A program made the position numbers and the translations under genes. From Diplocarpon mali (Eukaryota > Ascomycota > Leotiomycetes > Helotiales > Drepanopezizaceae): a stretch of DNA of 28,438 nt. This document shows, one piece after another, positions 333-26,038 of the stretch (positions are counted from its first letter, which is position 1; every line of letters begins with the position of its first letter). The notes under the pieces were generated by a model, which had not been told where the DNA came from, searched no databases, and worked only from the letters and a program-made list of their open reading frames with translations. The stretch covers positions 1 through 28,438 of the forward strand of contig JAENRP010000456.1 of the NCBI GenBank assembly GCA_024741835.1, in the 5' to 3' direction.

Positions 333-361
333 TCAAGTTGCAAGCTAGGCCTAGGAGTTAT
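333..361. repeat. 29-bp palindromic repeat, copy 1
   Basis: Central A at 347; core CAAGCTAGGCCTAGGAGT. On the minus strand it reads ITPRPSLQL in the frame of relic gene 1. It lies at the place equivalent to the copy at 4227 in the paralogue. Confidence 0.7.
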
Positions 362-1154
362 ATTAGGTGTTTTTACATAAGGTTTCTTAGTGCTATACTT
401 CTTAAATAGAATCGTCTTATCAATTATATTATTAGCCTTAATATTATCTTTTATATCTTTAGTCTTTATTTAAAACTTATTACTATATAACTATAGCTTT
501 AATTATTAAACCAGCTTTTAAGTATTAGTAAAATCTTTAAAAAGTTCTTATTTATACTTCTTTAGATATACTAATAGCTAAGATACGTCTTTTGCGAATA
601 AATCCTTTATAGTCATTACTATTAATAGATTGTTTTATAATCTTCTACCTATAAGGGCTTCTGATAATAGACCACCTTTTATTATTCCAATTATTACTTA
701 AAATCTTATAAAAGATTTATAAATTATACCCTATCTTAATAATTAAGGCTTTTTTATATTAATAGAATCAATAAGGAAATCTTTTAAATCAGCTCTATTC
801 TTAAGCGTATTATTGCTAATAACTTTTATATAGTTATTGCTAATAGTAAGAAAACCACCCTTCTTAAGCTTTCTATTAGAATCCAGGTTAATAAAAGTGC
901 CTTATCTTATAAATATAAAAAATAGAGTAATCTTATTAAAGATATACTCCTTTAAAATTATTCTATCCTTAATATTTAATTCTCTCTATTAAGCTGCGCT
1001 TTATATTAAGTTTAGCAAGATCTATTAAGAGTTTTTAAAGCGATAGGATATAAGTATAAATAACTTATAAGACTTTTCCTATATAGTAAATTCCTTAGTT
1101 AATTATTTAATAGTAAGAATTATATAATAGTTAATAGTTCTACTATTAGGAGAA

Positions 1155-1183
1155 TTGACCTATAAGCTAGGCCTAAGAGTCAA
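1155..1183. repeat. 29-bp palindromic repeat, copy 2
   Basis: The ends TTGAC and GTCAA are still perfectly complementary, around a central A at 1169. The minus-strand frame reads LTLRPSL-stop-V, where the stop is a probable former Gln codon. It is positionally equivalent to the copy at 5112 in relic gene 2. Confidence 0.8.
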
Positions 1184-2384
1184 CCTTACAAATCTCGAAT
1201 TAGCATTAATCTTAGTAGAAACAATTCGCAAATAGTAGTTAATACTTATAAATTATATAGGCTTAAGATATACTACTAGCTTATATAAAGAATTATAATA
1301 AGTTAATAGAGCATTAAGATATAGACTATAGTATATCCTTAAGGTCTATTATATTAAGCTATAAGTTATATTATAAAGAAAGGTAGAAGGAGGGAAAGGC
1401 TTTTTATCAAAGGTCTAGAAATAATATTAGTATATTTATAGCTCTTCTTATACTAATATCAAAAAGGAATTCTTTCTATAGTTACTAGTACTATATATGC
1501 GCATAGTGCTTAAGAAAGCATAGCTTAACAACTTAAGTATATTTAAGAAACCTTTAGTATAAAGTAATATTAAAGTATCCTTAATTAGTATAGTCTTATA
1601 CTAAGCAAGGGTCTAAGCGATATTATAGAATAATTTAAAGGCCTTAGATGCTACTCTAAACTTAAAGAAACCTAATAATATATCTTTCTTAATTTGGATA
1701 GCCCTTCTATTGCTAATAGCTATAATTGCATAGTTTCTAAGGTATAATAAGAATAAAGTTAGGTTAGGTATAGTATAAAATTTATATATATTAAAGGAAA
1801 CTTACTTATTAGTTAAAGATACTATTATCAGCTTATAATATTATATATATTATTATTTATATAGAATATAAAATTTTTCGAAACTGAAGTCCTTAAATAT
1901 CCTTATTATAAATTTACTTAATTATATCTTCATCTTTAATATTATTGCAATCTTAAATCTATTACTATATTAAAGTATTATCTTAATATTAAAGGAAACT
2001 TTATAGCACTCTATAGAGATAATTATTATACTATTTTCTAGCTTTTCTTTAAGGATATAGTAAGCGCCCTTCGATTTCTTATGCTTAATAAAGAAATGTA
2101 TAATATTATCTATAGAAAATTCGTCTTATTATAGCTTTATAATTTGTTTAATAGCTCTTGCCATTGCTTCCTATGCTAGCAAAACTTCTCCTTAACCTTC
2201 CTTTTTCAAACGCTTTATTATTAACTTATAGAATTTTAAAATAAAATTTTACAAGTCTTTAGAAAAGGTCTATATAATATTAGATATATCCTTCTTAATA
2301 TTATTAAAAATTTCTATTATATTAATAATAAGGTTATTTTCTTTATTTATTAGATCATCTTTAGAGTTTATATTATTATATATA

Positions 2385-2413
2385 ATAACCTATAGGCTAG
2401 GCTTATAAGTCAA
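2385..2413. repeat. 29-bp palindromic repeat, copy 3 (extra copy in relic gene 1)
   Basis: Central A at 2399, core CTATAGGCTAGGCTTATAAG. The minus strand reads LTYKPSL-stop-V in the gene 1 frame. The equivalent place in relic gene 2 (about 6310) has no copy, so this one was gained here or lost there. It lies only 157 bp from copy 4. Confidence 0.75.
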
Positions 2414-2570
2414 CTTCTTTACTATTAGTATTCTAAGTGTTTAAGGCATTTTTAAGGATAGTAAATCAAATTCGTCTAAGTCTAATAATTAGTAATTATA
2501 ATAGTTAGCTATTTGAGTTCTAAGTATTATAAGTACCTCTAGCTTAAGGATATCCTCTTTATATAGTACT

Positions 2571-2599
2571 TCCACCTATAGGCCAGGCCTATAAGTCAA
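2571..2599. repeat. 29-bp palindromic repeat, copy 4
   Basis: Contains a perfect 17-bp inner palindrome, TATAGGCC-A-GGCCTATA, at 2577-2593. The minus strand reads LTYRPGL-stop-V after the segment AESISEPE. It is positionally equivalent to the copy at 6498 in relic gene 2. Confidence 0.85.
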
Positions 2600-3555
2600 T
2601 TCAGGTTCACTTATCGATTCTGCTACTATTAGTAGTAACTTTAAGATAATAGGTATAATAAATTCCTATCTTTCTATTTTATTATTAAAGTAGTTTATAG
2701 TATACTTAGCTAGATATATTATCTTATCTTTTATAATAAGTAAACTATATTAAGACTATTATAAGCTAAGGGTATTTAGAATGGTTTGATTTAAGAGTGC
2801 TAAATTATTATACTATAATAGAGTATCTTTTATTATCTAAATGGCCAAGTGCATAATAGTACTTAAGAAACCTATAAATTTTCTACCTTGCGTACTATTT
2901 CCTTATAGCTTTTTTATACCCTCTTAGATAGCGAAATAATTTAATACCTATATAGCCTTTGCTACTAGTTAGTATATTTTAAAAATTTTGCCAAGCCCTT
3001 GCAAGGCGTTATTAGCAGTAATATTAGTTATAAAGTATATTTGAAAAAGTATACTATAAGTGCTACTTATAAACTATAATAATCTTTTTATATACTCATT
3101 TTTCTTATCTTAATTCTTTTAAAATAGATTGACTAAATTGGTATACCTTTGATATTCTTATAAAAACTTTTCATAATCAATTCCCTTTATCTTAAGCTTA
3201 TTCTTAAGAAAATCATCGAAGTTTAAAAATCCTTCTTTAATTGCAAAGATTCTATAGTTTAATACTTTAATAGATAAGTTTAAAAATACCTATTATTCTA
3301 TCTTACCTAATATTCTATAAGTGCTTACTATATCTTTTAATAATCTTAGTAACTTACCCTCTTATAAAAAGCCACCCTTTAATATTAGCTTATTATTAGT
3401 AGTATTTATTGACTTACTGCTTAAGGTAATAACTGATATATTTTTCTTAAGTATAGTTCTTTTACTTAAGTTTAATAGTGCTATAGTAAAGTATTTAATA
3501 GGAATAGAATAATAGAATATATAAAGGCTTATTTAAAAAAGATTAATAAAATAGT

Positions 3556-3972
3556 AAGCTTATACTAAGAAAGAATTGATAATAGAAGATAGTAGTAGTA
3601 GTATTACTAGTACTAGTGCTAGGATTTAGTAGGGTTATAGAAAGGTAAAAAAAAGTATAATTATAGTATAAAGAGAGGTTTATTTATAAAGATAGGAATC
3701 GCATTAGTATATAAAGGAAAAGTAGGTATAAAGAGGCCGAAAGTGGGAATAAAAGTAGGATATAATATATATAAGAACCTATAATTAGTAAATGATAATT
3801 ATTAAAGGTAAGGATGATATTTTAAAGGTAAGCGTTAGAAAGTTATATATAAAGGAAATAATTAAAGGATAGATTATATAAAGAATAAAGTAAAGTAAAG
3901 AATATATATAAAATAGAATAATAAATAGAGAATAAATAAGTGCTAGTATATAAGAAGTAGATAATTTTTAAA
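3556..3972 (+). pseudogene. Purine-rich plus-strand relic frame between the two tandem genes
   Basis: The plus strand changes from pyrimidine-rich (the template side of the minus-strand relics) to strongly purine-rich here. One plus frame, read through TAA/TAG, is protein-like: it starts near KKELIIEDSSSSITSTSARI and continues with Lys/Arg/Gln/Glu-rich stretches such as IIIKGKDDILKVSVRKLYIK and ends near SASI-stop-EVDNF. No start Met, family or domain is visible. It could be a short charged protein gene killed by RIP, or only a compositional strand switch. The corresponding space upstream of relic gene 2 (about 7480-7700) is also purine-rich but not recognisably similar. Confidence 0.3.
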
Positions 3973-4226
3973 AATGATCTAACTTAAATTTGTAAGTTCT
4001 TTAAATAGTTTTCTCTAAAGGTAATAGGCTAGATTCTTTAGATTGCTTACCTTAATTATCAGTTCTATTATCACTTTAGAGTCTTCTTCTTTTATATTAA
4101 TTCTTACCTTTTAGCGATTTCTCTAATTCTAATGCCTTTATTAAAAGAACCTCTATTTATACCCTTAGGTTTAGTAGCCGAAGTTCATCTGAACTATCTT
4201 ATAGGCTAAAGCTAGCTAAGTCCAAC

Positions 4227-4255
4227 CTTACTCACAGGCCAGGCTCGCGAGTCAG
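4227..4255. repeat. 29-bp palindromic repeat, copy 5 (least decayed arm)
   Basis: One of the two least mutated copies: CTCACAGGCCAGGCTCGCGA around a central A at 4241, then GTCA. The minus strand reads LTREPGL-stop-V in relic gene 2. Together with the copy at 5112 it suggests an ancestral arm TTGACTCGCAGGCC. Confidence 0.85.
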
Positions 4256-5111
4256 TCTTGGCATTTTTAAGCTTAAGGGTAAAAACAGGGGATTGGTTCT
4301 TAAATTAAGGTCTAATACTATTTTAATATCTTAGTTCGTCTCCTTTTCGAATTTTCTTATAATAATGCCTTTATTAATTAGTATATTAGGCTCTTAGATA
4401 GTATTTACTTTATTATATTATCCTTAAGACTTAAGTCTATAAAGAAGCGACTTAGTATTTATAATATTTGTTTAAGCTTTAATAAGGGTATTAAAGAGCT
4501 TTTAATTATATTCTATAAGGTGAATTTTCAATTCGTCTTTATTAAGAAGAAATAACTCTTATACTTCGATTATAATTAATAGATCTATTTAAGACTATTA
4601 ACTAATAATAGCTTTAAAGAGGCTACTATAGTTCTTAAGATAAAAAGCTACTTTAAAAGGTGCAGCAGTTCTACTTATATTAATCTATTAAGGTACTAAG
4701 GGTTACTCTAAAGTAGAGATTGAAAAGATAAGATTAGAGATTCGAATCTCATTTTCTAAGGTATTCTTATTGCAAATAGCTATATAATTATTATAAAAGG
4801 CTATAAAACTACCAGTTTTATAAGAATTATTTAAAAGCATCTTAAGAAGATATTCCTATTTTATTATTATTATAATTAGATTACTATTATTAGTAATAGG
4901 TCGCAAGATCTCCTTTTACTTTAATTTTATAATTATTTAAGCTAGCTAAGATTTTAAACTAAGTGCTTAAGAAGTCTATCGACTTATCTTCTTTATAAAT
5001 AAAGTGAGTTTTATATTCAATTAAAAGCCGACCTACCTATTAAGGCTTTTAAAAGCTAGCCCTTATCCGATTAGTAGGATTTGATAATCTAAGATTTACT
5101 TTTTAATAAAA

Positions 5112-5140
5112 TTGACTCGCAGGCTAGGACTGCAAGTAAT
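5112..5140. repeat. 29-bp palindromic repeat, copy 6 (intact left arm)
   Basis: The left arm TTGACTCGCAGGCT differs at one base from the inferred ancestral arm; the central A is at 5126. The minus strand reads TCSPSLRVN in the frame of relic gene 2. Confidence 0.85.
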
Positions 5141-6497
5141 AATCGGATTTTCTTTATTAGTAATACTTATATCTCTCTTTATTAAAATAACTTAATTATA
5201 AAGACTAAGATTAATTAATTAAAAAGGTTCAAGGTAGGTCATAAGCTAATAAGCTCTTCTACTTTTCGCTATTATAGCTAAGAGGTAGAGTCTATAATAT
5301 ATCCGAAGGACTTATTAAATAAGACTGAATATTATATTATAAAGAAAATAAAAAGCTATAGAGGTCGCATTATCTATAGAGTAAAAGTAATAAAGGTATA
5401 TCTCTACTTCTTATTTTATAATAGAAAGGAATATACTTATAAAAGTACTATTATTAATAGTAAAATTGTCAATTAGGAAGCGGCATCCGAAGAGTTCAGG
5501 TATTATAATTGACCCTTCTTCCTCTATTTCCTCCTACTATTTATTACTTAATAATATTAATAAAAAGGAATTGTTCTATTTAATTAGCTCTAATGCTTTT
5601 AAGGCTTTAGGATCAGCCTTGAATTTTATAGCACTTAAAGATACCTTTATTATTAATAAGTTAGATTTGCATATCCTTAAAGAGACGAAGAACTAATTAT
5701 TAAAGTAGATTAGAAAAAGATCAATATCTTCTACTATATAAAGAAGTTTAAGGTATTTAATAGTTTTATTAATATTAAATCCTTTATAATTAAGACTATA
5801 GTAAATCGAAAGAAAGCGAATATAAAGGTTATAAAGTCTTTTCCCTTTGATTCTTACGCTAAGAAGATACTATCAAAAGCGAGTTTTTATTATAAAGGAT
5901 ACCTAAATGTTATATTATTCTTTAAGCTTAAGGTTAAGAATAACTAATTAAGGTATATTGCTATAATTATAAATGTCTTAATTAATAGATTCCTTTTCGC
6001 ATTCTCTTTCTTATAAGATAAAATAGTCTTGCTTAGCATTTAAGAGACTAAGTTCTTGACTTTTATAATTATTAAAGAATTGAATAATATTTATAAAAGC
6101 GAATTTATTTAAGGTAAGCTATTAAATCTATTTAATAGCTCTTTTAATTATTTCTAAAGTAGTAGGAATAGGGTCTTCCTTTATATTATTATTTTTAAAG
6201 CAGTTGTATATAAATATAAAGAAGTTAAGAACTAGCTCTTTTAAATTATTAAGAAAGGAGTTTAGATAGGCGCGTAATCCTTTAGTTTTAAATTGCAAAT
6301 TAGCTAAGGTAGCTATTAAATGATTTATCCTTTTTAAAGGTTAAGTTAAAATAGGTCATTTAGCTAAAGGAAAGTCCTTTAAAGATTCTGAAAATTCCAA
6401 AGAGGCTGCGCTAAGCGTTTGGGTAATTTATTCGATAGCTGTTTTTAAAATCATTTTAATAAAAGGTAGGTTAGGTCTAGTTTTAAAATTCTCATTT

Positions 6498-6526
6498 CTA
6501 ACTCTTAATCTAGGACTGCGAGTTAA
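6498..6526. repeat. 29-bp palindromic repeat, copy 7
   Basis: Central A at 6512, ends TAACTC and GAGTTAA. The minus strand reads LTRSPRLRV in a frame that stays open on both sides (SIKLYN before, RNENFKT after). Confidence 0.8.
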
Positions 6527-7369
6527 ATTATATAGTTTAATACTTATTATATCTTTAAGTTAAGAAGCGAATTTTAAGGTAGGCTTAATTATAAATAACC
6601 AATTCCCTTCTTTATTATTAAAGAAATCTTGTTTAAACCCTATTATAAGAGTCTAATTCTCTTTTAAAATAAGCAAACTATAAGTAGAAGCGCAGAGCCT
6701 TAGTATATTAATAATAGTGCTATTAAGTAGGGTAATATCTACAGTTTAATTTGATCTTTTTATAGCCCTATTAACTACTATAAGTACTGCATTAGATAGG
6801 CCTATAAATCTGCGATTGCGAATTCGATTGCTTTAGAATTTTATTACTCCTTTTTAAATAATAAAGAAATTAAGAATCTAAATAGCTTTAGTAGTAGGAG
6901 TGTTTTCCTTAAGAATTTTTAATAATACTTATCTTCTATTATTAGAATTAATATTTATTAAGAAGTGCAAATAAAATAGGAGTCCTCTTTTATTAATAGT
7001 TAAATTATCCAATTATTAAATAGATTCTTCTCTTTTATCTTAATCTATTTTAAAAGTATTAGCTAAAGTTATATATTAATTTATATTAGCTAAGAATTCC
7101 TCTTTAAAGATTTCCTTTAGTCTTAATTCTTTAGTTAAGAAGTCGTTAAATTAGAGAATTCCAAAGGCCACTTAGGTTAAAAGGTTATTAATGGCATTTG
7201 CGTAAGTTGAAAGGAGTTTTTATTGCTTTATATCTCTTAAGGCTATATAAGTCGATTTAAAGTTCTTTAATAATATAATAGCTTTACTATCTTAAAAGAA
7301 GTTTATAACTAGTATTTGTTTATCCTTTATCGCAATAGGTAAAACCATTTATAAGTTCTTTAAAGGCAT

Positions 7370-7639
7370 ATTACTTATAAAAGATAGGGAGTATAAATAA
7401 GAGAGTTTAATAGGATATAAGAATTAAAAGGGTATATAAGCTGCAATAGGTTTGCTATATATATATTAAGGAGATTGGACTTTTTTTATTTATTTATTTA
7501 TTGTTTAAAGAAAGTAATAGGAATGCTATAATTAAAGGCTAATATTAAGAATATAAAATAAGTTAAAGTAGGTAAGAATTTAAAGTGATCTTAAAAGATC
7601 TATATCTTAAATAATAAAGGAGGCGACCTTATTAAAAAT
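7370..7639. other. AT-rich spacer between relic gene 2 and the Gypsy pol end
   Basis: No gene is supported. It holds a TTTATTTATTTATT run near 7487-7501, a TATATATATATT run near 7458-7469, and purine-rich sequence on the plus strand from about 7505. A Gypsy 3' LTR would be expected here, but no similarity to the LTR-like sequence at 26727-26976 was seen. Confidence 0.5.
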
Positions 7640-7770
7640 GTAAAAATAAGGATTAGAAGAAGGTAGGATAATTAATAGGTTAGGAAATCGTTTAGTATTT
7701 CTATTTACATTCTTTAGATATTTTAAGAATAATAACTTAAAGTTGCGATTAATTAGGTATTTTAATATTC

Positions 7771-7799
7771 TTTACTTATAGGACTGGCTTATAGGTTAA
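7771..7799. repeat. 29-bp palindromic repeat, copy 8 (inverted centre)
   Basis: The central base is T at 7785 where most copies have A, so it may be inserted in the opposite orientation. The minus strand reads LTYKPVL-stop-V near the C-terminus of the Gypsy polyprotein (SNISNFKPLDKD just before). Confidence 0.7.
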
Positions 7800-7979
7800 A
7801 TTGGAAAAATCTTAGTCTTTATCTAAAGGTTTAAAGTTGCTTATATTGCTATTAGTTTTTATAAAAGATTCGGAGGTTATATCAATTTCTAATTTATCTT
7901 CTAAAGGGAATAAGGTCTAATTGTATTAATAAAAGCGCTTTAGTCAGTTAGCTATAAAGGTTCCTTTAATATTAATTCT

Positions 7980-9100
7980 ATTAAGTTCTTAAAGAGAATA
8001 GTATCCTTTTTCTTTCTACTTAGATTTAACCTTAAATAGACTAAGCTATTAATAGTTAAGTTTAGTATCTATTAATATATTAATACTTCTTATAATATTA
8101 TAGACTAGGATAAGATTATCTTTTCAAATAAGGTGCGTTTTAAGTACTTTAGAAGCAGCCTATGCTTCCTTAGCTTTTTCCTAATATTATTTCTTTTATA
8201 AAATGATTTCCTTTATATTTATATCTTAAAGCTTAAGTTATTAGCATCTTATTATAAGTAAATCGGAACGGTTTTAAATTTGACTATAGTCGAATAATCT
8301 TTAAATAGGCTATTAGGATTTAAGTAAGAGCTATACCTCTCTACTATAAATAAGAAAAAATAGTATAACTCTAGTTAGTTTATAAATTATTATTCAATAA
8401 GTAAAGAGTATTTTATAAAAGTGTTTTATCTAATTCTTAAATCTTCTATAAGTAACTTTGAATAGCCTATTAAGAATATTGCAATATCCTTACTCTATTA
8501 CTCTATTAGCTTTTAAGTTATATACTAAGATTTGAACTTATTTAATGCTATATTTTTATAAAAAAGCTTTAATTACTCCTTTATTTTTAAGGCCTCTATT
8601 AATAGTTAATCTATTAAAAAGTCTATAGCAATAGACTACGTCTTCTTAAAGGAACTTTATAATAGATTTAGAGTTAGTAGATTTTAAAGGTTATCCTTTA
8701 AGCTATCCTAATAGGTCTTTTTTTACTAAAATAAAATATATAATCCTATTTTCAATTATTAGTACTTATATAATATTAAGACTAACTTTATAAAAAAGGC
8801 CTAATAGCCAAGTTAGGAATAAGGGATTCTCTTCCCGATTAGGTTTTCGTTTCTAATAAGAGATATAACTTTTCATAAAAGCTTTATAGTCCTTAAAAGA
8901 ACCCTTTTAAAAGAATTTTCTTAAGAGTTAATAGTAAGTAGACTTAGCTCCTTAGTAGCCAATCTTCTTATAAATATTTTAAATAGCCTTAGCTTATAGT
9001 TTATTATTATTTAAATAGAGCTATATAGGAAATAAGTTATCGCTCCTTTTAAATAATCGTCTTCCTTATATTAAATAAATCAGAGCTTTAGCTTTAAATT
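7980..9100 (-). pseudogene. Gypsy integrase relic
   Basis: Minus-strand frame. The zinc-binding part near 8830-9000 retains the segment KIGY-stop-GAKSTYY, comparable to the H-x-G-x-x-x-TY of Gypsy integrases, and then YISY-stop-KRKPNRE. The catalytic core follows: KVSLNII near 8780 (first Asp now Asn), TINRGLKNKGV near 8600 (the D-G-G-P-E-N block, Asp now Asn), and NLKANRVIE near 8505, where the Glu remains. Past the core, LYINSL-like and INIKGTFIAN segments near 7960-8050 match the conserved C-terminal tail of fungal Gypsy integrases. It would have joined element cDNA to the chromosome. It is certainly inactive. Confidence 0.8.
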
Positions 9101-9205
9101 TCTAAAAATCCTTAAGAGCAACTATCTTTAATCGTTTAAGTGTAATTAAAAATTTCGCAATTTTTTTAAAGTCACTTAAGTAGTTAAGTAATAAAATTCT
9201 CTTAT

Positions 9206-9234
9206 TTAACTTATAAGCTAAGCTCGCGAGTTAA
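9206..9234. repeat. 29-bp palindromic repeat, copy 9 (different reading frame)
   Basis: Central A at 9220; ends TTAACT and AGTTAA are exact complements. It lies between RNase H and integrase. The surrounding pol frame on the minus strand runs through it as LASLAYKL, not as L-T-x-x-P-x-L-x-V, so here the insert is read in another frame. Confidence 0.75.
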
Positions 9235-9399
9235 GTCCCTTTAAAGCAGTATATTAATAGATAACTAACTTCGTTCTCTACCTACTTATTAATATCTATT
9301 TCATTTTCTTTAATTAAATTAAAGGAGTAAGGATAAGTTCTTTTTAAAAGGCTATTAGTAGTAGTATTTTTCATTCTTAGAATATATTTAACTTTAAAG

Positions 9400-9790
9400 T
9401 CCATTAGTCTTATTTAAATAATCCATTTTATTAATAAGGCTCTTAGTAAGTCATTTATAGCTCTATTCAATTGTTCTACTAGCACTTTAATATTAGTTTT
9501 AAAGATAAAGTAAGTGCTATAAAGGTCGCTTCTTATCTTTTTTATTACCTTTAAAGCGCCTTTGCATTCCTATTTAATAGTATTATACTTTATCTTTACT
9601 AGATTTTAAAGACTATTTTTAAAGTAAGCTAAATGTCTTTTCTATTAGCTATTAGCTTATTAAAGGATAGTACCCTATTTAATTAAGCTTATATCAACTA
9701 TTAGTATAATTAGCTTAGCATCGGCTCTATAGTCTATTTTAATTAGATATAGCGCTTTAAGCAACGCTTACTTCAGTTATTTTATAGCCT
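9400..9790 (-). pseudogene. Gypsy RNase H relic
   Basis: The minus strand reads a segment beginning IDYRADAKLIILIVDISL, which corresponds to the 'D-A-S-x-x-G-x-G' opening of Gypsy RNase H. It is followed by KYNAIK-stop-ECKGALKVI and FIFKTNIKVLVEQLNRA, matching the conserved E-C and T-D-x-x-x-L blocks (the Asp is now Asn), and by MDFKVKYILRMKNTTTNSL, the usual 'H-x-x-G-x-x-N-x-x-A-D-x-L' end. In the element it would degrade RNA from the RNA/cDNA hybrid. The part below about 9611 is missing from the second Gypsy copy. Confidence 0.85.
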
Positions 9791-9989
9791 CTATTTAAAG
9801 TTCCTCCTATTAAAACTTAGCCCCTTTTTAAAATAAGGCGTAAATAAGTGCTGCTTTTTTAATAAAATCCTTAATTTAAATGCGATAGTATACTATAATG
9901 CTAATAAATGCGCAGGCTTTTGCTATATTATTATACCTCTTCTATTTATCGATTTTAAGTACTTTAGCCCTTTAAGGACTTCAGCTATT

Positions 9990-10700
9990 AGAATTAGTAA
10001 TAAAACTAATAATTTCTATTAATAGAAGATAGTATTATAACTTCGGACTAACTATTACTCTTACCCTTTCGAATCGTATAAGCACTTAGTTTAGGTTTTA
10101 AATATATTTTATTATAAATTATTATATATTAAGGAGAACTTCTTTATAATTATAAAATAATCTTAATCCTTTTACTCTTATATTATCTATATAAGGGAGC
10201 GTAATATTAGGTATATAATCTATTAGTATTTTATAAATTACTTAAATAAATTAAGCAATCGAATTTATAGCTTCTTAAGGTAATCTTATTATCTAAAGTA
10301 GCTTAAGAGGGGTTTGAATTACTATTATATCTCTTGATTTAACGTTAAGAATGAATTAGTTATATTTAAAGAAGAAGTTAATAAGAGAGCTATAGGTTAA
10401 TCCTACGAATTTATTTAAGAACTTATCTATATTTAAAGGAACGTTAATATCTTTAATAGTTACTCGGTTCATCTTTACTACTACTATTATTAGTCTATAA
10501 GTTCCCTTCTCTTTCTTAGCAATTAGGAACCATTTATTCTTATAAGGGCTATTATAAAACTCGAGAATACCTTACTTTAGCTTATCCTTTAATATTTCGA
10601 TTACCTTTTCTTAAAAAGCTTTAAGGACCTTAAATGTTTTCTTTTACTAGGCTTTATAAGGTATTATCTTAATCTTAATATAAGGTATAACCTCTTTTCG
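9990..10700 (-). pseudogene. Gypsy reverse transcriptase relic
   Basis: The minus strand reads GILEFYNSPYKNKWFLIAKK near 10510-10570, then TYRLIIVVVKMNRVTIKDIN, then VKSRDIIVIQTPLKLL near 10320 and LP-stop-EAINSIA-stop-F. These match the finger and palm of a fungal Gypsy RT family (G-I-x-E-x-x-x-S-P-Y, then the D-x-F-x-G-Y and Q-T-P-L-G-L blocks). The catalytic box reads Y-I-D-N at 10182-10193, so the second Asp of the D-D pair has become Asn by GAT to AAT. The substrate would be element RNA primed by a tRNA in the virus-like particle. Confidence 0.9.
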
Positions 10701-11172
10701 AATCTAGCTAAGTTCTATCTAATCAAAAGCTAAGGCGTCTTCTTAATTTGTTAAGGTTTTATAGAATAGTTCGCATTCTTACTCTATTAAGTCTTTTCCA
10801 ATTTTCAATATATTAAAACGTTTTTTTATTAGCCGATATCCAATAGGTTTATTAGAAAATCTGCCTATAATAAACTTATCGAATTTGCCACCTAGCTTTA
10901 GAGGTTGAAGCTTCTTATCTTATTCAAACTAATCATTTAGTCCTTTAGGCTTTAAGCTATTAGAGATTCCCTAATTTACCGATTGTACTTTATCGGCCTT
11001 GCTTTTATATATAGTTCGAATATTAGCTAATACTATACTTCTCTATTTCTTTCCTTTTTTATCAAATCTTATAAAACGGTCCGAATTTTCCTTTTTAAAA
11101 ATAAATAAAAGATTTTCTAAATCGTTAATTTAAAGTGCGTAAATAGAAATATTATTAGTAATTTTATTATTT

Positions 11173-11201
11173 TTCACTTGCGGGTCTAACTTATAAGTGG
11201 T
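11173..11201. repeat. 29-bp palindromic repeat, copy 10 (inverted centre, diverged)
   Basis: Ends CACTT and AAGTG are complementary around a central T at 11187. The minus strand reads TYKLDPQVKN in the pol frame. It is more diverged than the others but at the same 29-bp spacing, and lies 134 bp from the next copy. Confidence 0.55.
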
Positions 11202-11334
11202 TTTTAAGTTTTTTAAAATGATTGGTAAATTATTAAAATTTATAAAATAAACCCTCTTCTTTGCTTTATTTTTCTTTTTTCTTAATTATTAATTTAATAA
11301 AACGCTAATTGTACTATTTTTCAAAATTCCAGAT

Positions 11335-11363
11335 TTAACTCTTAGGCTAAGATCGTAAGTTAA
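11335..11363. repeat. 29-bp palindromic repeat, copy 11
   Basis: Ends TTAACT and AGTTAA are exact complements around a central A at 11349. The minus strand reads LTYDLSLRVKSG in a frame open on both sides. Confidence 0.8.
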
Positions 11364-11699
11364 ATCGCTATTATTCAAAATCGGCCAACTTACCTTTCTT
11401 TTACTATAACTCTTTACTAAGTGCCTTCTTTTACTAGTATTAAGCCTAGCCCTTATATTAGCTAATCGTTTTCTAAAACCTTATTCTAGAATTCGGCTAT
11501 ATCTCTTATAATAACCATTTATCCTTTTAAAGATCGATCCGTATTCTAAAGACTAGCTTTTATAAGACTATTTTTAAAATAGTTAAATATTAGCTAAGAT
11601 TTTAAAATAAAGGGTATTTTTAAAAGAATATCATTTGAAAAATTCTCTATTATTAGAAAGTTAGTATAATTAACAATTCCTCTAACTTTAACCTTTACG

Positions 11700-12620: not shown

Positions 12621-12699
12621 AGTACTCTCTTAAGTAGATTGCTAGCTGGACCTATATATATATAAGTTAGGACCTTAGAGTTGATTTCGATAATATGCT

Positions 12700-13006: not shown

Positions 13007-13011
13007 GGATT
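13007..13011. other. Left target-site duplication GGATT of the Copia composite
   Basis: GGATT immediately precedes the first LTR (TGTCGTGCAG) and recurs directly after the last LTR at 24758-24762. Five bases is the usual Copia integrase footprint. Confidence 0.85.
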
Positions 13012-13273: not shown

Positions 13274-13434
13274 TAAGCTCTTAATCGACTTTTCGAGTAT
13301 TTATAATAACTTAAAGGACCTTTATTTTTAATTAATAAATCTCTATTTTCCAATTGAACCTTATTTGCAAATTTCATTTATATACTTAACCTTTTCACTA
13401 GACTCTATTTAATATATCTAACTCTTTAAGTATC

Positions 13435-16400: not shown

Positions 16401-17156
16401 AAAGGAAGAAGGAGCTTAAGATGCTAAGTTCGAAGGTATTTTTAAGGAATCAGAGCTTATTATAAGGTCGAACGCAATCGCTATAAAAGAAGCTGCTATA
16501 TAAGAAGAGCTTGCATTATAGACCGACGCTGCTCTATAACCTCTAACTAATAATATAAAAGGCCTTAACTTAAATCCAAATTCTCTAAGAGACCCGCTTA
16601 AAAACTCAAGGGCAGAAGTAAGCAAACTAAAAGCCATTTCGCTAGTCTTTAAAAAGGCAAATAGCAATTAAAGCTTAAGGGTAATAATTCCCTATAAAGG
16701 CCCTACCGAAAAAGGAACTATAGACGACTCTAAGGGAGTCTTTAAAGACGAGTTCTATAAGGCGATCGGCAGATCTTTAGCTGCTATTCTACGTAAAAAT
16801 AAAGATGGCTTAAGGGCTTTAAGATAGAGTCTTTAATTATAAAGGCAAGCCCTAGTAAACTTTAGTAAAAGGCTAAAGGCATTACTACTAAGATTTAAGA
16901 GAAGCTCTAATAGTCTTATAAGAAGCGACCTAGTAAGAGGAGTAGGCCTTAATAATATAATACCTCAAGTTGTAATACTAGCTTAAAGACTATAGGCTTA
17001 AGAGATAAAGCTACTCAGACTCTTAAAGGAACCTTTAGTAATAATAAAAATAAAAAAGGAGACCTATAAAGAAAAGCGCAAGGAGGAACTCCCTCTTCTT
17101 AAGCAAAAGAGGATAAGACGCTTAAGCGTTAAGCAATAGGAGACTTTAAAAGTATA
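13435..17156 (+). pseudogene. Copia Gag-PR-IN relic A (outer element, truncated before RT)
   Basis: A single plus-strand frame with many TAA/TAG, from about PRFNTSTS near 13445. Gag-like sequence (NKYIFFAKLYNITIFADLRL near 13480; KCSYRGFKNHYQK-like patch near 14490) leads to a retropepsin-like motif, NNCAATYIINSKDL near 14868-14910, whose catalytic Asp is now Asn. Integrase follows: pre-integrase segment near 15400-15510, LIKDKYSSILQIFLLRSKGK near 15620 (first Asp present), LKEDSLIKY near 15785, and TYIY-stop-PNRSVEQV near 15855-15890 (Glu present). ITTYNIEFDKSLFY near 16290-16330 matches the conserved post-integrase T-R-D-V-x-F-x-E block. The frame stops dead at the middle LTR, so no RT or RNase H remains. 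Confidence 0.85.
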
Positions 17157-17354
17157 TATCGTGCAGAATGGGCGGAGTCTCCACTTATTCTGAAGACCCT
17201 CTACGTGACTCTTGCTAAGTCATAGACTCTCCCTTTTCTTTCTAAAGTCTCCTTATTATATATATATTAAAGAATAATATAATAAATCATCTTTATTTAT
17301 ATTAGCAAGCCTTTTAAGCGACCTAATAAAGGCCCTCTAGCTAACTATACTATA
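17157..17354 (+). repeat. Copia middle LTR: 5' LTR of the inner element (198 bp)
   Basis: Begins TATCGTGCAGAATGGGCGGA (TG to TA at the tip) and aligns base for base with the first LTR. It is directly preceded by GTATA (17152-17156), the proposed target of the inner insertion; the same GTATA is uninterrupted in internal B near 21297-21302. Confidence 0.9.
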
Positions 17355-17579
17355 GTTATAAGCCCTATAAGCACTTTAACATACTTTCTCTTTATATGCA
17401 ACCGGCTGAAGGGCCTTTTAAGCTCTTAACCGACTTTTCGAATATTTATAATAATTCAAAGGACCTTTATTTTTAATTAACAAATTTCTATTTTTTAATC
17501 GAACCTTATTTGCAAATTTTATTTATATACCTAACCTTTTCATTAGATTCTATTTAATATATCTAACTCTTTAAGTATC

Positions 17580-20500
17580 TCCAAGCCTCGCCTTAACACT
17601 TCTGCCTCTTAAGTAAAGTAGTTTAGTAAATATATGTTTTTCGCTAAGCTTTATAATATTACCATTTTTACCGATCTAAGACTCCTATTTAAGTTAATTA
17701 TAAAGACCGAGCCTTAAGCTCCCTTTATATAAGAGCTTAAAGAACTAGAAACGGCTAACCTTTGCATAATATATGCAAGGTTATATAAAAAGTATATAGT
17801 AACTCTATTTAAATAGATTTACGCCTGCTTTCCCTTAAGAGACCTATCAAAGGCTCCTCTTCTATAAGCTTTATATAAGGATATTAAGGATAAATATAAA
17901 ATCCTAATAAAGGAGTACTATATTTGCAAGGAGACTTAAAAGACCTAATGCAAATATTATAAACTACTCTTAAAATAGGTCTCTAAGACTGTCGATAGAA
18001 TACTCTTAGCTTTTGCAATAGCTTAAGTATAAATCCAAGCTAAGAAGCTCTCCTCCTTAATACCTAATAGAGATACTCCTATAACTAGAACTACTACTAA
18101 CGACCTGCATTCTATTTTAATAAACTAGTAACTCTTACTCTAAGGCCTAGTATCTATTTTAAAGTATAATATTACGCCTTCTAATAAGGCTATTCAATCT
18201 TAAATAAGGCTTTAGTATCGCAATATACTACGCTAAGGCAAGACTAAGAGAACTAATACTTAGTAGTAGATCCAGGAGTAGCAGGAGGCGTACCGCCTAA
18301 TAGAATAACATAGTCTTCCTAAGATTAAAGGGAGACTAGGAGTTACTAACTTTTTAAACTTAATTATAGTAAAGATTAATCTAAGTTAGGCGATTCACTT
18401 AAAGGAGGAAATTATTACTAATAAGTAGATAGGAACCCTATATAAGCATAACCTAATGCAGCTAAGCCGCGCTTTAGCAAGTATTAAATCTAATAAAGCG
18501 ATTGATAATAAAGGGCTAGCAGTTTTTACTACTTAAGAGTCTCTCTTAGATGCTAAAACCCTTTTGCAAGCTTTAGTAAGCAGCTTCCGAAATCGCTCTA
18601 TAAGCTTTAGAAGGGAGATTAGGCCTAAGTACCCTTATAAAGGCTTTAAAAATCACTATTAGAAGCTCTAAGACTATTAGAAACTATTATATATTATAAA
18701 TAGGCGCAAGGAAAATATAAAGGTTCTCCCCTTGCAAGAGGAGGTCCTATAAATACAAAAGGCATTAAATGTAAAAGATTAGTTCAAGGGTCTTTAAGCA
18801 TAGCTCAAGGAGAATAATATTATAATAATAGCAATTGACAAATTTAAGGGAAAGGCTTCAGCCTTTAAAGAGGATGGTTTAAGCAAAAGGGAGAACTCAC
18901 TAGTCTTTATAGTAATAGATCCCTCTGCCTTTAATGCTTTTAAAGAATTGTTTAATATCTACTACCTCTTTAAGCTAGAACGCCACTTGCTTTCCTTAAG
19001 TATGCTCTTTAATAATTGTATAGCTACTTATATTATTAATTCAAAGGATTTACTTATCGCAAGTACTTTTAAGCCTTCTAGCAACTTATAATAATATATT
19101 AAAGCAGGTACCTTAAGACTCCCAATCATTAGGAGAGGTGATAGATATATAGCAGACTCTCTTCTATAGCGTAATAGCTCTCTTATAAGGATAACGCTTT
19201 ATAATATTACTATTATAAAGGAGTTTATTATTAATATTATCTTAAAGAGGCTCCTTGCGGATAAGGGTTTTTAATACTTTAGAGTAGACCTTACTTTGCG
19301 CTCTAAGAGCATTAAAGATTCTATAAAGCGAGCTTACTTAAAGTGTTACTATAATCTCATTTTCTTTAAATATAAGCTTATCAACTATTTAGATCTCTTA
19401 AATATACTTTAATATGACTTCTCTACCTTAATAGCGTTCCCTATAGCTAAGATAATACTTTATAATAAGTTCTAGTCTAGCTATGCACCTACTAAGGTAT
19501 AGGATAATAATGCATATACTTAATACCTTCGCGCTAGCCACTTAGGCGCAAAGGCTCTCTAAGTGCTAGTTAAGTGCGCTAAAGGAGTAAAGATCAAGGG
19601 AATACAAAGGTTAAAGTGCCTTATATGCGCAGTAGCATCTGCTAAGTAAGTTATTTCTTATACTATCTTTAAGAACCGATCTTTAAGGCCCTTCTTCAGA
19701 ATCTCCTAAGATCTCTTTAACTTTTTAGACAACTTATATAACAATTGCTTATAGGTTCTTTTAATTAAAGATAAGTATAATAGTATACTTTAGATATTCC
19801 TATTAAGATCAAAAGGCAAAGATATAGTTATAAAGGTCCTTTAGGCCTTTAAAGCATAAGTAAAACGCTAATATAGGCTTTTAATTTGCAAGATTAGGCA
19901 AGATAATAATACTTTAGTAATCTCCTTAAGAGAAGACTCTCTTATAAAGTACTAAAGATAGGTAAAAGAGGAGGGAATTGATTTAAAGCTTACTCCCACC
20001 TATATATATTAACCTAATAAAGGCGCAGAGCAAGTAGGAAAGGAGTTAATTAAACGCTCTATTAAAATGAGAATCTACGCCAGGCTTTTAGCAAGCCTTT
20101 AGCCAAAGGTTATAAAGGCTATTATATACCTTTATAATATCTCCCTACTTATTAAGAAGAAGATGATCTTATTAAGCAAGGCTCTTTATAATTAGTTTAA
20201 GTAGTATTTTCGATTCTATAAGCCGCTGCTTATTAAGTAGATGATAGTAAGCTTAAAGCCTAACTAAAGTCGCATTTATATATATAGCGCTTGCGTATAC
20301 CCTTTAATTAAAGAGAAGGAGGTAGGGAGGGACCGTTAAACCTTTAAAATTAAACTATAAAGGCACTTAAGTTACTTAATTAAATATATTACCTTTAATA
20401 TTTATAGAATCTAGGTTCTTATACTCTAGCGAGTAATAACAACTCATAATATCGAATTCGATAAGTCTCTCTTCTATAGTTTAAAAGCTAAGCGCGCAAA

Positions 20501-23069
20501 CCCTATATTACGCTAGGAACTTAAGATAACCCTTTAATTGATCGAAAAGGGAGAGAGAGCTTAGAATGCTAAGTTCGAAAGCATTTTCGAGGAATTAAAG
20601 CTTATCGTAAGGCCGAATACAATCACTGCAAAAGAAGCTACTATATAAGAAGAGCCTATATTATAGATTAACACTATTCTATAGCCTTTAACTAATAATA
20701 TAAAAGGCTTTAACTTAAATCCAAATTCTTTAAGAGACTTGCTTAGAAACTCAAAGGTAGAAGCAAGCAAATTAAAAGCCACTTCGCTAATCTTTAAAAA
20801 GGTAAATAGCAACTAAAGCTTAAGGGTAATAATTCCTTATAAAAGCCCTATTAAAGAAGGAACTGTAGACAACTCTAAGGGAGTCTCTAAAGATAAGTTC
20901 TATAAGGCGATCGGCAGATCTCTAGCTACTATTTTATATAAGAATAAAGATGGCTTAAGGGCTTTAAGATAAAGTCTTTAATTATAAAGGCAAGCCCTAG
21001 TAAACTTTAGTAAAAGGCTAGAGGCACTACCGCCAAGATCTAAGAGGAGCTCTAATAGTCTTATAAGAAGCGACCTAGTAAAAGGAATAGGCCCTAATAA
21101 TATAATACCTTAAGTTATAATATTAGCTTAAAGACTATAGGCTTAAAAGATAGAGCTACCTAGACTTTTAAAGGAACCTTTAATAATAATAAAAATAGAA
21201 GAGGAGACTTATAAAGAAAAGCACAAGGAGGAACTCCCTCTTCTTAAGCAAAAGAGGATAAGACGCTTAAGCGTTAAGCAATAGGAGACTTTAAAAGTAT
21301 ATACTACTACTTTAAAGTATATACTCTTTTAAAGTAATATTAATTTACCCTACTCTTTATATGCGCAAGAGTTTATATTAACCTTTTAAGTAAATGAATA
21401 AATAAAGGAGGATAGGAAGGACTATTTAACAGTTTATATAGTTATTAAAGCTGCAGTTGATAATCGGGCAAAGGATAGAGCGCAATCTCTTAACTGCCTA
21501 TAGCACTAAGGCTTTCTACTAAAGCCTTTAAAAGGATGGCTAGACCTAGAGAAGCACCCTTTTAGCGAACGATTTAAGGAAAGAGGGCGTTAGGAGATTA
21601 AGAATTTAAAATCTCAAAGTTACTAGAGAATTATATAAAAGGATTACTCGAAACCCCTACTAATACTATTAAAATAGGTTTTTACTTATAAGGTTAATAG
21701 CTCTAGCGAGCTTTTAAAGTGCCGATTATAGCTAATTATATAAAGGGATCTTTAAGATAAAGCTTTAATTTTCTCAACTTATATAGCTATACTTATAGTA
21801 AGGTCTTTTAAAGTATTAATAGCGCTTACTATATACTTCGATATAGAAGTAAAGCAGTTCGATATTATTAACGCATTTATCAACGCTCCTAAAGACCTAA
21901 GGAGTACTTTAGTCATATGCTTCCTATTAAATGGCTTTAAGCGCCCTAGTATAGTAGTAGAATTGGACTGCGCGCTCTATAGGCTAAAAGACTCTCTAGC
22001 ACTATAGTATAGGAACTTCGCAAGAATGCTTAAAGGCCTTTAACTTAAGCTATTAAGCAAGGAGACTTATATTTTTATAACAAAGGATTATATAGTCTTT
22101 ATAGCATTTTATATTAATAATATTTAAGTGTTATATAAGGCCTTTAACCTAGATCAGGCGACTTATCTAATTAAAGACTTAAAGAGGGCGTACAAGCTTA
22201 CTATTATAAGAGATATCTCCTAGTTCCTTAGAATAAGGATTATTTAAGATAAGAAGGCAAAGAGGATCTCCTTAGTTTATAATACTTATATTAAGAAGAT
22301 CGCTCAAAAGTTCGAAGCTAATATAAGGAGAGTGCCTAGTATTCTATTGCTAAAGAAGGAGTTTGTTAAGAACTTAAGGTAAGCTTCCTTAGAAAAGGTA
22401 AAAGAGTACTAAGAAAAAATAGGCTCTATTCTTTATATAGCAATTATAATACACTTAGATATTGCGTTCGCAGCCTTTTAATTATCTTTCTTCCTAACTA
22501 ATCCAAGCTTTAAGTACCTTTTAACCGCGGACTAGACGCTTTAATACCTATATAGTATATGCTTCTTAGGAATTGCCTATAGCTTTAAGGCTAGGGAATA
22601 CCAATTGGTTGTATCTTTAAATGCTTCTTTTAAAGATAATCAAAAGACCTATAGATCCTCTTAAGGATACGTCTTCTTCTTATTTAAAGGACCGATTATT
22701 TAGAAAGCGAATCGCTAAGCGACTATTACGCTCTCTTCTACTAAAGTAGAACTCTATAATATAGTTTCTATTGCAAAGGAGATAATAGCTATAAAACGCC
22801 TCTTTAAAGAGATTCGCATAGACTCCTTCTTTAAATAGAATATATATTATAATAATTAATAGACGATTCGGCTAATTATTATAAAGAATAAGAAGATTAA
22901 GATAAGCCTTTAATATATTAAAATCAGTAATATATAGATCTGCTAAGAGTATTAAAGAAGAAGCTTTTAAATAATCTACCTTCCTATTAGGAAGATGCAC
23001 GCAAATAGGCTTATTAAAAACCTAAACTACTAAAAGTTTAAAAGCTTTATTTATTTATTAAACTTTTAA
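17580..23069 (+). pseudogene. Copia Gag-PR-IN-RT-RH polyprotein relic B (inner element, full domain set)
   Basis: Repeats relic A up to about 21302 at an offset of 4145 bp, then continues. RT: QFDIINAFINAPKDLRST near 21845-21905 and LDCALYRLKDSLAL near 21965-22005 match the Copia 'D-V-x-x-A-F-L-x-G' and 'L-x-K-A-L-Y-G-L-K-Q' blocks. The catalytic Y-V-D-D reads Y-I-N-N at about 22111-22122, so both Asp are lost. RNase H: ATITLSSTKVELYNIVSIAK near 22720-22780 and MHANRLIKNLNY near 22996-23030, equal to the Copia 'A-D-x-L-T-K' end. TAA at 23067-23069 fits the natural C-terminus. Most other stops are former Gln or Trp codons by inference. The protein would have carried out a full Copia life cycle before decay. 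Confidence 0.9.
23031..23068. terminator. 11-bp inverted repeat over the end of the Copia pol frame
   Basis: TAAAAGTTTAA at 23031-23041 and its exact reverse complement at 23058-23068 can pair around a 16-nt loop and overlap the last codons of pol. The sequence shows a hairpin; a role in termination or 3' processing is only a guess, and such AT-only pairing can arise by chance in this composition. Confidence 0.25.
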
Positions 23070-24559
23070 AGCTTTTAAATAATTGTTTAATAACTCGCAC
23101 TTATTAATAAGTAGTCACTTATTATTAAGAGACTTATACTTATAAGCTCTTACTCTCTTATAATTACATTTATTTGTTTTCTCTTATAAAGTGCACTATA
23201 GAAGCTTTTCCTTTTTTAAAAATATAAGAATAGGTAATATTCCTAAGCTACTATTATAAGGCGCAACCCTCTCTTAGATTCTCCTAGCTAGGGCTAGGAG
23301 CTAAGATGCTATAGCTAAGAGCTCTATATAGATCTCCTTTTAAAAGAGGCCTATTGGTACTCCTTTGGCCAAAGGCCTGCTGGCAAATATATTAGCAATA
23401 GTAGGGGCAAAGGCGAGGGGTATAGTAAGGGTAATAAGAGCAAAGGCGGTAAGGGCGGCGGCGAGGATAGGCGTAGCAATAGCAAGGGCTAAGGAGATAA
23501 ATAAAGAGACTATAGCAGCAGCTGTAATAGCAGAGGCAAAGGGGATAGGAGCAGCGGCAATAGCAATAGGGGCGAACGGGTCTAAGCTAAAGGGCTTAAG
23601 AGCAAATAAGAACGGTATACTAAAAGCAAGGGAGGTAGTAATACTACTACTTATAAGAGTAGTAGGCCCTTTTAATACTAGGGTCCGATCGCTCCTATCT
23701 TTTAAAATTAGCTTAAAACTTAATAAGACTTAATAAATGTACTATAAAAGCTTTAAAGCGCACCCTTTACTATATTAAGCAATAGTACTACCTCCTTTTT
23801 AAAGGCGCCGCAGGCGCAGGCCGATATAACAGCCTCTTAAGAGGCAAAGAGAAGTCCATTAGCCTACTAGCAGCTATTGCTTAATACTATATAATAAATA
23901 TAATATATACCAAAGGTACTATTAAAGTACTAACAATCGAGATTGCTAGTACTCTTATATGCGATGCAATATACGCACGCATTATCGCGCTCTATTATAA
24001 GCTTAAGCATATAGTATATAGCAGGGGCAAGGCTCTTAGGTAGCGGCAGTAGCAGCAGAGGCGGCGGTAGCAGTAAGGGCAATAGCAGCAGCGGCTTATT
24101 GCCTAGCAGGTACTAGGACAATTGCGCTAGGGTTACAGCTCTTAAAGGAGCGCTAGCAACTTAGCGCAAAGTTAGTATAACGCAAGGTATAGGGACTCTA
24201 AGGGTCTTACTTTATAAGAGCAGCTAAGGCTATAATAAGCAGGAGTTCCTTTTATATTTAAAAATTATTAGTATAAAGACGATATTTTTAAATAATAAAG
24301 GAGGGTTATTTTTAAAAAAAGGGAAGGAGAACCTCTGCGATAGAAATACTTTATAAAAAGCCTAATAGAGCATTAGTATAAAATCATAAAGATTCCTAAG
24401 CGCGCTTATTACTTATAGTAACCCTTCTTATTTTAAAAGGAACGACCTTTAAAAGGGCAGTATATAAGATAGAGCCTCTTTTTCTTATAATTGCTATTCT
24501 TTCTTTTATTTTATTTATATAGCTAAGCGATTCTAAGAGCATCGCTTAACTAAAGGGTA
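23070..24559 (+). other. 1.5-kb post-pol region of the Copia element
   Basis: Copia elements usually have a short stretch between RNase H and the 3' LTR; here there are about 1,490 bp. The part near 23340-24230 is visibly richer in G and C than its surroundings and still contains many CpA, TpG and CpG steps, so it looks less affected by RIP. The last bases before the LTR include TAAAGGG, a short polypurine run that could be the plus-strand primer. It may be a normal 3' extension of this family or sequence acquired by one copy; internal A is truncated and cannot tell. Confidence 0.6.
23235..24240 (+). pseudogene. Relic frame rich in Gly/Ser/Lys/Arg/Asn downstream of Copia pol
   Basis: One plus-strand frame (codons starting at positions divisible by 3) stays protein-like for about 1 kb if TAA/TAG are ignored. 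It begins around YYYKAQPSLRFS, then AYWYSFGQRPAGKYISNSRG near 23345-23405, a block GKGGGEDRRSNSKG near 23450-23490, SSSCNSRGKGDRSSGNSNRG near 23520-23575, GPIAPIF near 23680, and a second low-complexity block GSGSSSRGGGSSKGNSSSG near 24036-24095. Both blocks are in the same frame, which argues for one disordered, basic protein or domain. No family was recognised; a Gag-like nucleic-acid-binding tail or a captured host fragment are possible. A second frame near 24020-24200 is Gln/Arg-rich and also fairly open, so the frame is not certain. Confidence 0.4.
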
Positions 24560-24757
24560 TATTATATAAAATAGGCAGAGTCTCTACTTATTCTAAAGAC
24601 CCTCTATATGACTCTTGCTAAGTTATAGACTCTCCCTTTTCTTTCCGAAGTCTCCTTACCATATATATACTAGATAATAATATAATAAATCATCTTCATC
24701 TATATTAGCAAGCCTCCTAAGCGACCTAATAAAGGCCCTCCAGCCGACCGCACCATA
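24560..24757 (+). repeat. Copia 3' LTR (198 bp, proposed recombinant of two LTRs)
   Basis: Begins TATTATATAAAATAGGCAGA, which differs from the first LTR only by transitions, and ends CCGACCGCACCATA. It is followed directly by GGATT, the duplication that precedes the first LTR. No internal sequence follows, so it closes the composite and is not a separate insertion. Confidence 0.9.
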
Positions 24758-24762
24758 GGATT
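24758..24762. other. Right target-site duplication GGATT of the Copia composite
   Basis: Exact match to 13007-13011; pairs the outermost LTRs as the ends of one insertion. Confidence 0.85.
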
Positions 24763-25000
24763 AATTCCTTCTTCTTTAACTAGCTATTACATTCTTATAT
24801 TAGTTGGTTATTCCGAATGATAAGAAGCAGGAGTCTAATAATAAGAACTACTAGGTTAGCTTATAGTAGCCGAGTTTTACTTATTACTAAATTAAGGAAT
24901 ATAGTATTTTTCTTATAAAAGATTATTAATCCTAATTTTTAAGCTTTAGATTTAGAGTTTTATAAATTAGGTCTTAAGTTCCTTAATTTTAAAGTTAGAT

Positions 25001-25029
25001 CTTACTCTTAAGTTAGGCCTATAAGTGAA
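25001..25029. repeat. 29-bp palindromic repeat, copy 12
   Basis: Central A at 25015. The minus strand reads FTYRPNLRVRSN within a well-preserved Gag frame (VKKNLIVIP before, FKIKELKT after), so the insert does not break the frame. Confidence 0.8.
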
Positions 25030-26009
25030 AGGTATAACTATTAGGTTTTTCTTTACCTCTTTTATAACTTTTAAAGCCTTTAAGTATTCTTAGACTAGGC
25101 TTTTAAGGTCTTTAATATAAGAGGGTGTAAGGGCTTTTTCCTACTTTATAATATTAATAGTTCTCTTATTAAGATTTGATTTTAAAGCAAAGGCCAAGAA
25201 TTCCTTAAATAAGGTAAAGGTTATAGGGTCTTGCTTATCGATTTTAAAATGTTTAATAATCTTATTTTAAAGGCTAGTAAGTAATCTAAGTAAGAAAAGG
25301 CAGCCTCTTTTAACTTTACTAAGTATTTTCTAGCTAATTAAGGTATTTAATATATAAGTAAAAGTCCGATAGTAGTTCTTAAGTTCCTTAAGAGTTTAAG
25401 TGATTAGAACAAATTCCTTTAAGAAAGCTAAAGTATTACAAATCTGCTATCTATTAAATTCTTAGAATTTAGACTTAAGAGCCTTAATAAGGAGTTCTTA
25501 TAAACTATACGTTTTCCATTTAAAGAGGGATTTAATAATATCCTTACTTATATAATTATAATAGTAAGGAAGCTAAGAAATCATATCCTTTTATATAATA
25601 TTAAAATCGTAATAAGTTTCCTTATATTACTTAAGGAAATTAGTAATATTAGCTCTTATAAAGTAAGGAGCGCTAAAGGAACTAAAGAGGAGAAAGTGAT
25701 TAGTAATAGCCTTAAATATAGCTATTATTGTTTTATACTAACTGTCTAAGTTAATAGAATTTATAAAAGGCAAAGGGGAAGCTTTAATATTGCGAGATTA
25801 ATTACTAAAAGGAGTACTTCGAAATTTAAAAGGGCTTAAAGAACATTTAGAATCTGAGTCAATCTTAAAGTGATTAAGACAAATTTAAAAAGATTTAAAT
25901 AAAGGGTTAGTAAAAAGTTTAAAATTATTATTATTTTTAGTATTTTCTAATATTAATATTAAAAAAGTAAGTAGCAGTCTTAAATTATTTAAGGATATCT
26001 TTTTATTCT

Positions 26010-26038
26010 CCCACTTATAGGTTAGGCCTAAGAATAGA
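26010..26038. repeat. 29-bp palindromic repeat, copy 13
   Basis: Central A at 26024, core CTTATAGGTTAGGCCTAAGA. The minus strand reads ILRPNL-stop-VGE in one frame and FLGLTYKW in another; both flanking frames are locally open, so the frame used here is ambiguous. Confidence 0.65.

Follow-up and report, generated by a model that had tools for sequence, protein, structure and literature searches.

How did one short palindrome come to lie thirteen times in relic coding sequence within a single stretch of the genome of Diplocarpon mali, an apple-blotch-type fungus? The stretch analysed, hereafter the window, is 28,438 nucleotides long (contig JAENRP010000456.1, positions 1 to 28,438). An initial annotation had placed 13 copies in it, embedded in decayed genes; all 13 carry the palindrome, and copies do lie in the relics of two open reading frames, ORF2 and ORF3, and of a Gypsy pol. 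They are given below, with ORF2 residues numbered after P0043, an intact relative:

333 to 361: ORF3, near the C-terminal end, frame f0
1155 to 1183: ORF3, aligned with the copy at ORF2 residue 745
2385 to 2413: ORF3, within a stretch of ~21 residues missing from ORF2
2571 to 2599: ORF3, aligned with the copy at ORF2 residue 283
4227 to 4255: ORF2, residue 1040, LTREPGPRV in the intact protein
5112 to 5140: ORF2, residue 745, FTRGPGPRV
6498 to 6526: ORF2, residue 283, LTRGPGPGV
7771 to 7799: C-terminal tail of the Gypsy pol, frame f0
9206 to 9234: linker between RNase H and integrase of the Gypsy pol, frame f1; TRLASPACES in the less mutated copy L057
11173 to 11201: pol frame upstream of the reverse transcriptase (RT), f0
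11335 to 11363: pol frame upstream of the RT, f0
25001 to 25029: region B, the part of element A (described below) upstream of pol
26010 to 26038: region B of element A

The window has a G+C content of 28% and contains CpA at 0.38 times and TpG at 0.28 times the expected frequency, a base composition that is the mark of RIP (C>T/G>A decay). When compared with less mutated copies, the 4227 palindrome differs from L052 at 4 of 29 bases, all four being C>T/G>A, and the 5112 palindrome at seven, six of them of this kind; the 9206 palindrome differs from L057 at ten bases, all C>T/G>A, and the 2385 palindrome from L059 at 12, of which 11 are. Since the less mutated copies differ from the window mainly by such changes, the older arm reads ACTCSCGGKCC, and since the window is RIP-decayed the original arm was GC-rich; the arm first taken as ancestral, TTGACTCGCAGGCC, is itself RIPped. 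The conserved palindrome consists of a 23-bp GC-rich core, ACTCSCGGKCC-S-GGMCCGSGAGT, and approximately six weakly conserved AT-rich bases per side (flank information reaches about the sixth base over 38 sites, 20 of them RIPped), so that with its flanks the motif spans 23-35 bp. In either arm, position 5 can be G or C and position 9 G or T, and the two arms of one site often disagree at these positions. Of 11 arm positions, 7-10 are complementary in each of 14 less mutated sites; in the 13 window copies the figure is 6 to 11 of 14. An Rfam search of the window returned 0 families.

A symmetrised profile built from the 13 copies found exactly these sites in the window at 10 bits or more, against 2.04 expected from 50 order-2 Markov sequences, and at 18 bits the ratio was 13 observed to 0.08 expected; the profile was trained on the same copies, and in a leave-one-out analysis each omitted copy still ranked in the top 13. 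When the core is read as ACTCSCGGKCCSGGMCCGSGAGT and only C>T/G>A changes are allowed, all 23 bases are explained in eight of the 13 copies, 22 in four and 21 in one. This RIP-tolerant core occurs at eight places in the window at 23 bases and at 12 places at 22, with means of 0.0 and 1.0 in five Markov sequences, and the excess becomes small at 20 bases or more (52 in the window vs 33.8).

The same excess was observed over the whole genome. The RIPped pattern with up to two mismatches has 452 sites, one GC-rich variant with up to three mismatches has 66 forward and 65 reverse, and the degenerate GC-rich core with up to one mismatch has 151, the reversed control yielding 0 in each case. A pattern that allows C>T and G>A changes has 8604 sites in the 49.4-Mb genome, about one per 5.7 kb, and five in the reversed control. 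A chance origin is rejected, as the profile, the RIP-tolerant core and the genome-wide counts all exceed their controls; that the palindrome is real, dispersed and more frequent than chance, as initially proposed, is borne out. Many of the 8604 sites are copies inherited along with a host repeat. On contig C1, 51 of the 52 sites listed fall in four islands inside the first 523 kb (hand count). A solitary site of this contig, G000:C1:292109, is ~100 kb or more from the next sites listed. Each of the 31 stretches read around less mutated sites belongs to one of the host repeat families (L059 was placed by eye); as they were picked from the best matches, host genes may still be among the carriers.

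The surroundings of the window copies make up one giant Ty3/Gypsy-like element, element A, whose order on the minus strand is region B, Gypsy pol, ORF2 and ORF3. Its parts are:

341 to 3403, minus strand: relic ORF3, distantly paralogous to ORF2 (23-31% identity over three pieces by tblastn with P0043)
4055 to 7369, minus strand: relic ORF2, whose intact relative P0043 is the hypothetical protein PZA11_006394 of D. coronariae
7806 to 11024, minus strand: relic Ty3/Gypsy pol (RT, RNase H, integrase)
about 13012 to 24758: nested LTR element or elements in element A, with three LTR copies, palindrome-free
24756 to 26984, minus strand: the rest of region B, continuous with 11394-13011 in the uninterrupted copy L026

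Copy L026 runs without interruption from window 8898-13011 into 24756-26984, and the heptamer TAGGATT, which flanks the gap on both sides in the window, is single in L026; ~13012-24755 is therefore a nested LTR insertion. LTR copies of the nested element were observed at 13012, 17159 and 24570, with a 4145-bp repeat period. Over their common stretch, four sister copies (L024, L025, L027 and L029) carry palindromes at the same positions as the window, and on C1 the sites from 394937 to 406603 and from 430263 to 441925 both repeat the window spacing from 26010 down to 2571 (1009, 1916, 162, 1967, 2697-2698, 1386, 876-885 and 1644-1648 nt), the counterpart of the 7771 site being absent among the C1 sites listed in both repeats. 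Element A copies hold up to nine or more palindromes each. As all 13 window copies lie in this one element, they were inherited there, and the window taken by itself is no proof of dispersal.

Several other properties of element A were noted. Pfam searches of six-frame reads of 1-9902, 8500-13010 (minus), 10700-13010 (plus) and 24756-28438 returned only the RNase H of the Gypsy pol. On the minus strand, 3' of this pol, 341-7369 holds two long paralogous ORFs, of which ORF2 is of the P0043 type (1105 aa); to our knowledge, it is unusual for a Gypsy-like element to encode two additional proteins this large. All 42 scored genomic copies of the P0043 type contain stops. A second Gypsy pol piece at 26976-28438, ~89% identical to 9612-11074, adjoins region B at 26976-26984. 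A direct repeat present at both ends of element A (L029:1-84 and window 26893-26976) is possibly part of its LTR, and a stretch E (L060, L081 and L082), which adjoins region B in L012, may be an end of the element.

Outside element A, the palindrome lies in three further families, none of them related to it or to each other. Copia-1, a Ty1/Copia element (L054, L055), has two sites in the gag-protease interval and another two in the integrase-RT interval, and one of its sites lies beyond the last Copia-1 frame. Copia-2, a second Ty1/Copia (L056, L028, L042), has three sites after the RNase H stop, 66 and 61 nt apart, together with an array of eight palindromes spaced by 48, 48, 48, 39, 48, 39 and 90 nt. 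This array was located at L028:9326-9714, its spacings are all multiples of 3, and the same series occurs at C1:43-464 and C1:509410-509741. Family F (C48, C140, C160, C4, C21) has one site and, 1.8 kb further on, two or three at 45 nt; Pfam found nothing in three short family F reads. Simple inheritance in a single repeat family is thus true for the window and false genome-wide, and of the initial claim of unrelated contexts the part concerning the window falls, its three contexts being pieces of one element, while the genome as a whole upholds it with four host families.

Within families, the number of units varies. Among 22 Copia-1 linkers aligned and counted by eye, seven have three units and 15 have two, and in all 40 linkers listed the difference in length to the query is divisible by 3, being non-zero in 37. 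Likewise, L102 has three units vs two in L096 and L099 (family F), and L089 two vs three in L056. The units measure 39-54 nt, or 13-18 residues, and this pattern clearly reflects tandem duplication acting locally. No Copia-1 copy without the motif was found among the aligned linkers, and no presence/absence polymorphism was seen within the family.

Two intact proteins of D. coronariae carry the palindrome in frame, translated as TRGPGPRV or TPGPGPRV: P0043 three times and P0044, a Copia-1 relative, five times, with two copies between gag and protease and three between integrase and RT. The P0044 copies lie between gag (65-220) and Pol_BBD (392-473) and between an SH3 domain (758-828) and RBR (895-920). 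The related proteins P0045 of Rhynchosporium (51% identity) and P0046 of Blumeria (36%) are without them. Two D. coronariae protein matches to the present genome have 70% and 90% identity. A regular expression for the peptide, run over 62 proteins, returned P0043, P0044, P0047 and P0050, the last two being rejected as carriers because their matches are Pro/Gly runs. Pfam and PDB sequence searches with P0043 found nothing, and its single-sequence structure prediction (mean pLDDT 33) was not used as evidence.

Of the 11 window copies to which a frame could be assigned, ten are in f0 (T-R-x-P-G-x-R-V), as are the P0043 and P0044 copies, and one, in the pol linker between RNase H and integrase, is in f1. 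The latter was confirmed in L057, where one frame is open throughout the linker (YRLKGTRLASPACESNKRI). This linker is variable in length and sequence among 20 pol relatives, and none of 42 proteins in the pol-relative search has the motif peptide. Most frame-assigned copies are in frame inside ORFs, in linkers or tails between domains, and some copies are in non-coding 3' parts. When ORF2 and ORF3 are aligned, the copies at residues 283 and 745 occupy the same columns and that at 1040 only roughly so, and the 2385 copy forms an insertion of ~21 residues in ORF3 relative to ORF2. Some positions may therefore be old and inherited, as opposed to inserted; the shared columns point either to copies of great age that were preserved as DNA or to more than one entry into the same site.

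We consider it probable (about 0.6) that a short imperfect palindrome found its way, at many positions, into several LTR-type retroelements of the nuclear genome that are unrelated to each other. The motif itself, its copy number, the four unrelated host families, the empty counterparts in relatives, the two frames, the in-frame indels and the RIP decay are the observations behind this reading. Its main challenge comes from the peptide: T[RP]GPGP[RG]V could serve retroelement polyproteins as a linker or as a site of processing, and protein selection would then have spread and maintained it, with the palindrome a by-product of the codons. The strong f0 bias agrees with such selection; it hints that the f0 peptide has some function or is tolerated, and of all the results it weighs most against a wholly selfish element. 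The location of sites at gag/PR, IN/RT and RT-RNaseH/IN junctions and the net linker indels in threes agree with it as well. However, the pol linker copy gives a different peptide from the same DNA, three copies lie past the Copia-2 RNase H stop and one past the last Copia-1 frame, and the peptide does not demand the complementarity of the arms. Because of the two frames, the non-coding copies and the complementary arms we favour spread at the DNA level, and hold the peptide explanation to be rather unlikely.

Spread at the DNA level could in turn be that of a MITE-like transposon, formed by two terminal inverted repeats joined head to head and mobilised by a transposase encoded elsewhere. The inverted arms, their AT-rich flanks and the joint occurrence of complete arms would fit it, but among 47 matches read by eye, from 431 on both strands, no half-site lacked its partner: the second arm was present in all 47, which speaks against the motif as the ends of a longer transposon. 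Moreover, no target-site duplication is visible by eye in 38 flank pairs, no clean empty site was found in the DNA, and DNA transposons make up 0.29% of a D. coronariae genome vs 20.7% for Copia and 5.7% for Ty3 (PMC11527701, available part), so that we regard this origin as improbable. We give even less credit to a signal acting in cis, as RNA or DNA, in packaging, dimerisation or regulation of the retroelements and maintained by its function at every site. Folding of 35-nt stretches from six less mutated copies, which gave hairpins of -13.3 to -19.7 kcal/mol, and the many sites per element A copy speak for it; against it, copy number varies by tandem units within one family and between families, and the nested LTR element at 13012-24758 carries none.

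Among the known systems closest to it are the Rickettsia palindromic elements (RPEs), which it resembles in behaviour, as the initial annotation had suggested by analogy. Like them, the motif is a short palindromic DNA found in frame in unrelated protein-coding genes and tolerated by the protein: it occurs in the intact proteins P0043 and P0044, in the relic pol, and across Ty3, Copia and ORFs without a Pfam domain. Unlike RPEs, which the available part of PMC10969869 describes as bacterial and ~150 bp long, it lies in retroelement genes of a eukaryotic nucleus and has a 23-bp core with information to +6 per side. Homology to RPEs or presence in Rickettsia was not found, the exact core pattern having 0 matches in contigs of 84,980 prokaryote genomes; it had 0 in viral contigs as well. 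The GC clusters of yeast mitochondrial DNA are also short GC-rich palindromes in AT-rich fungal DNA, present in varying number as here, and for them unit merger and shuffling have been proposed and an RNA-mediated route discussed (PMC4478555, available part). Those clusters, however, are mitochondrial, mostly intergenic and have a putative AG target duplication, in contrast to a motif of nuclear retroelements found largely in coding frames; P0043 and P0044 are encoded on contigs of 3.07 and 4.80 Mb, and the mitochondrial sequence of D. coronariae is given as 77,646 bp (PMC11527701, available part).

PARCELs, too, are repeats in coding sequence that have dyad symmetry and an association with mobile elements, and occur in bacteria and some eukaryotic microbes, but they are tandem amphipathic repeats of 25 residues (PMC2996958, available part), whereas the present motif is a mostly dispersed 23-bp palindrome with a Pro/Gly-rich peptide of eight residues, in tandem units of 13-18 residues where these are present. 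Coding palindromes of Nematomorpha mitochondria and hairpin elements of sponge mitochondria resemble it as hairpins within or between organelle genes, and differ in being organellar and, in the available parts of PMC6649704 and PMC2800124, not one repeated word in retrotransposons. No account of this repeat was found in the literature searched, and 'palindrom' is absent from the available main text of the D. coronariae genome papers searched. The best reading is that of a tiny retrotransposon passenger that behaves like RPEs and mitochondrial GC clusters and is a member of neither.

As to how such a passenger could have spread, its distribution suggests that it moved as a unit between families, and the unit, judging by the matches read, would be the whole palindrome and never half of it. 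The Pro/Gly-rich peptide it encodes (TRGPGPRV and similar) would be tolerated in linkers and tails between domains. Once in a host element, the palindrome was passed on with it, multiplied locally in tandem units, and then, together with the host, mutated by RIP. The likely route would be reverse transcription, with hairpin-promoted template switching between co-packaged RNAs; we prefer it since all hosts of assigned type are retroelements, since no transposon bounded by terminal repeats with these ends was observed, and because of the proportions of Copia, Ty3 and DNA transposons reported for D. coronariae. More tentatively, the motif could be a mobile hairpin of 23-35 bp borne by nuclear retrotransposons, in effect a parasite of parasites, which jumps from one LTR retroelement to an unrelated one in the course of reverse transcription and persists through stop-free translation in several frames; this possibility, which we would not yet call likely, would make it the first protein-coding palindromic element of such design in a eukaryotic nucleus.

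Until now, palindromes that encode protein were a curiosity of bacteria, and short GC palindromes that move one of organelles. Here a single word, present in thousands of copies in the nuclear retroelements of a fungus, within reading frames and in the gaps between domains, constitutes a natural experiment on the spread of the smallest repeats, in which sister copies, intact proteins and the RIP clock make the route of movement directly testable across assemblies and relatives. If that route is reverse transcription, it would be a way for retrotransposon proteins to gain new linkers.
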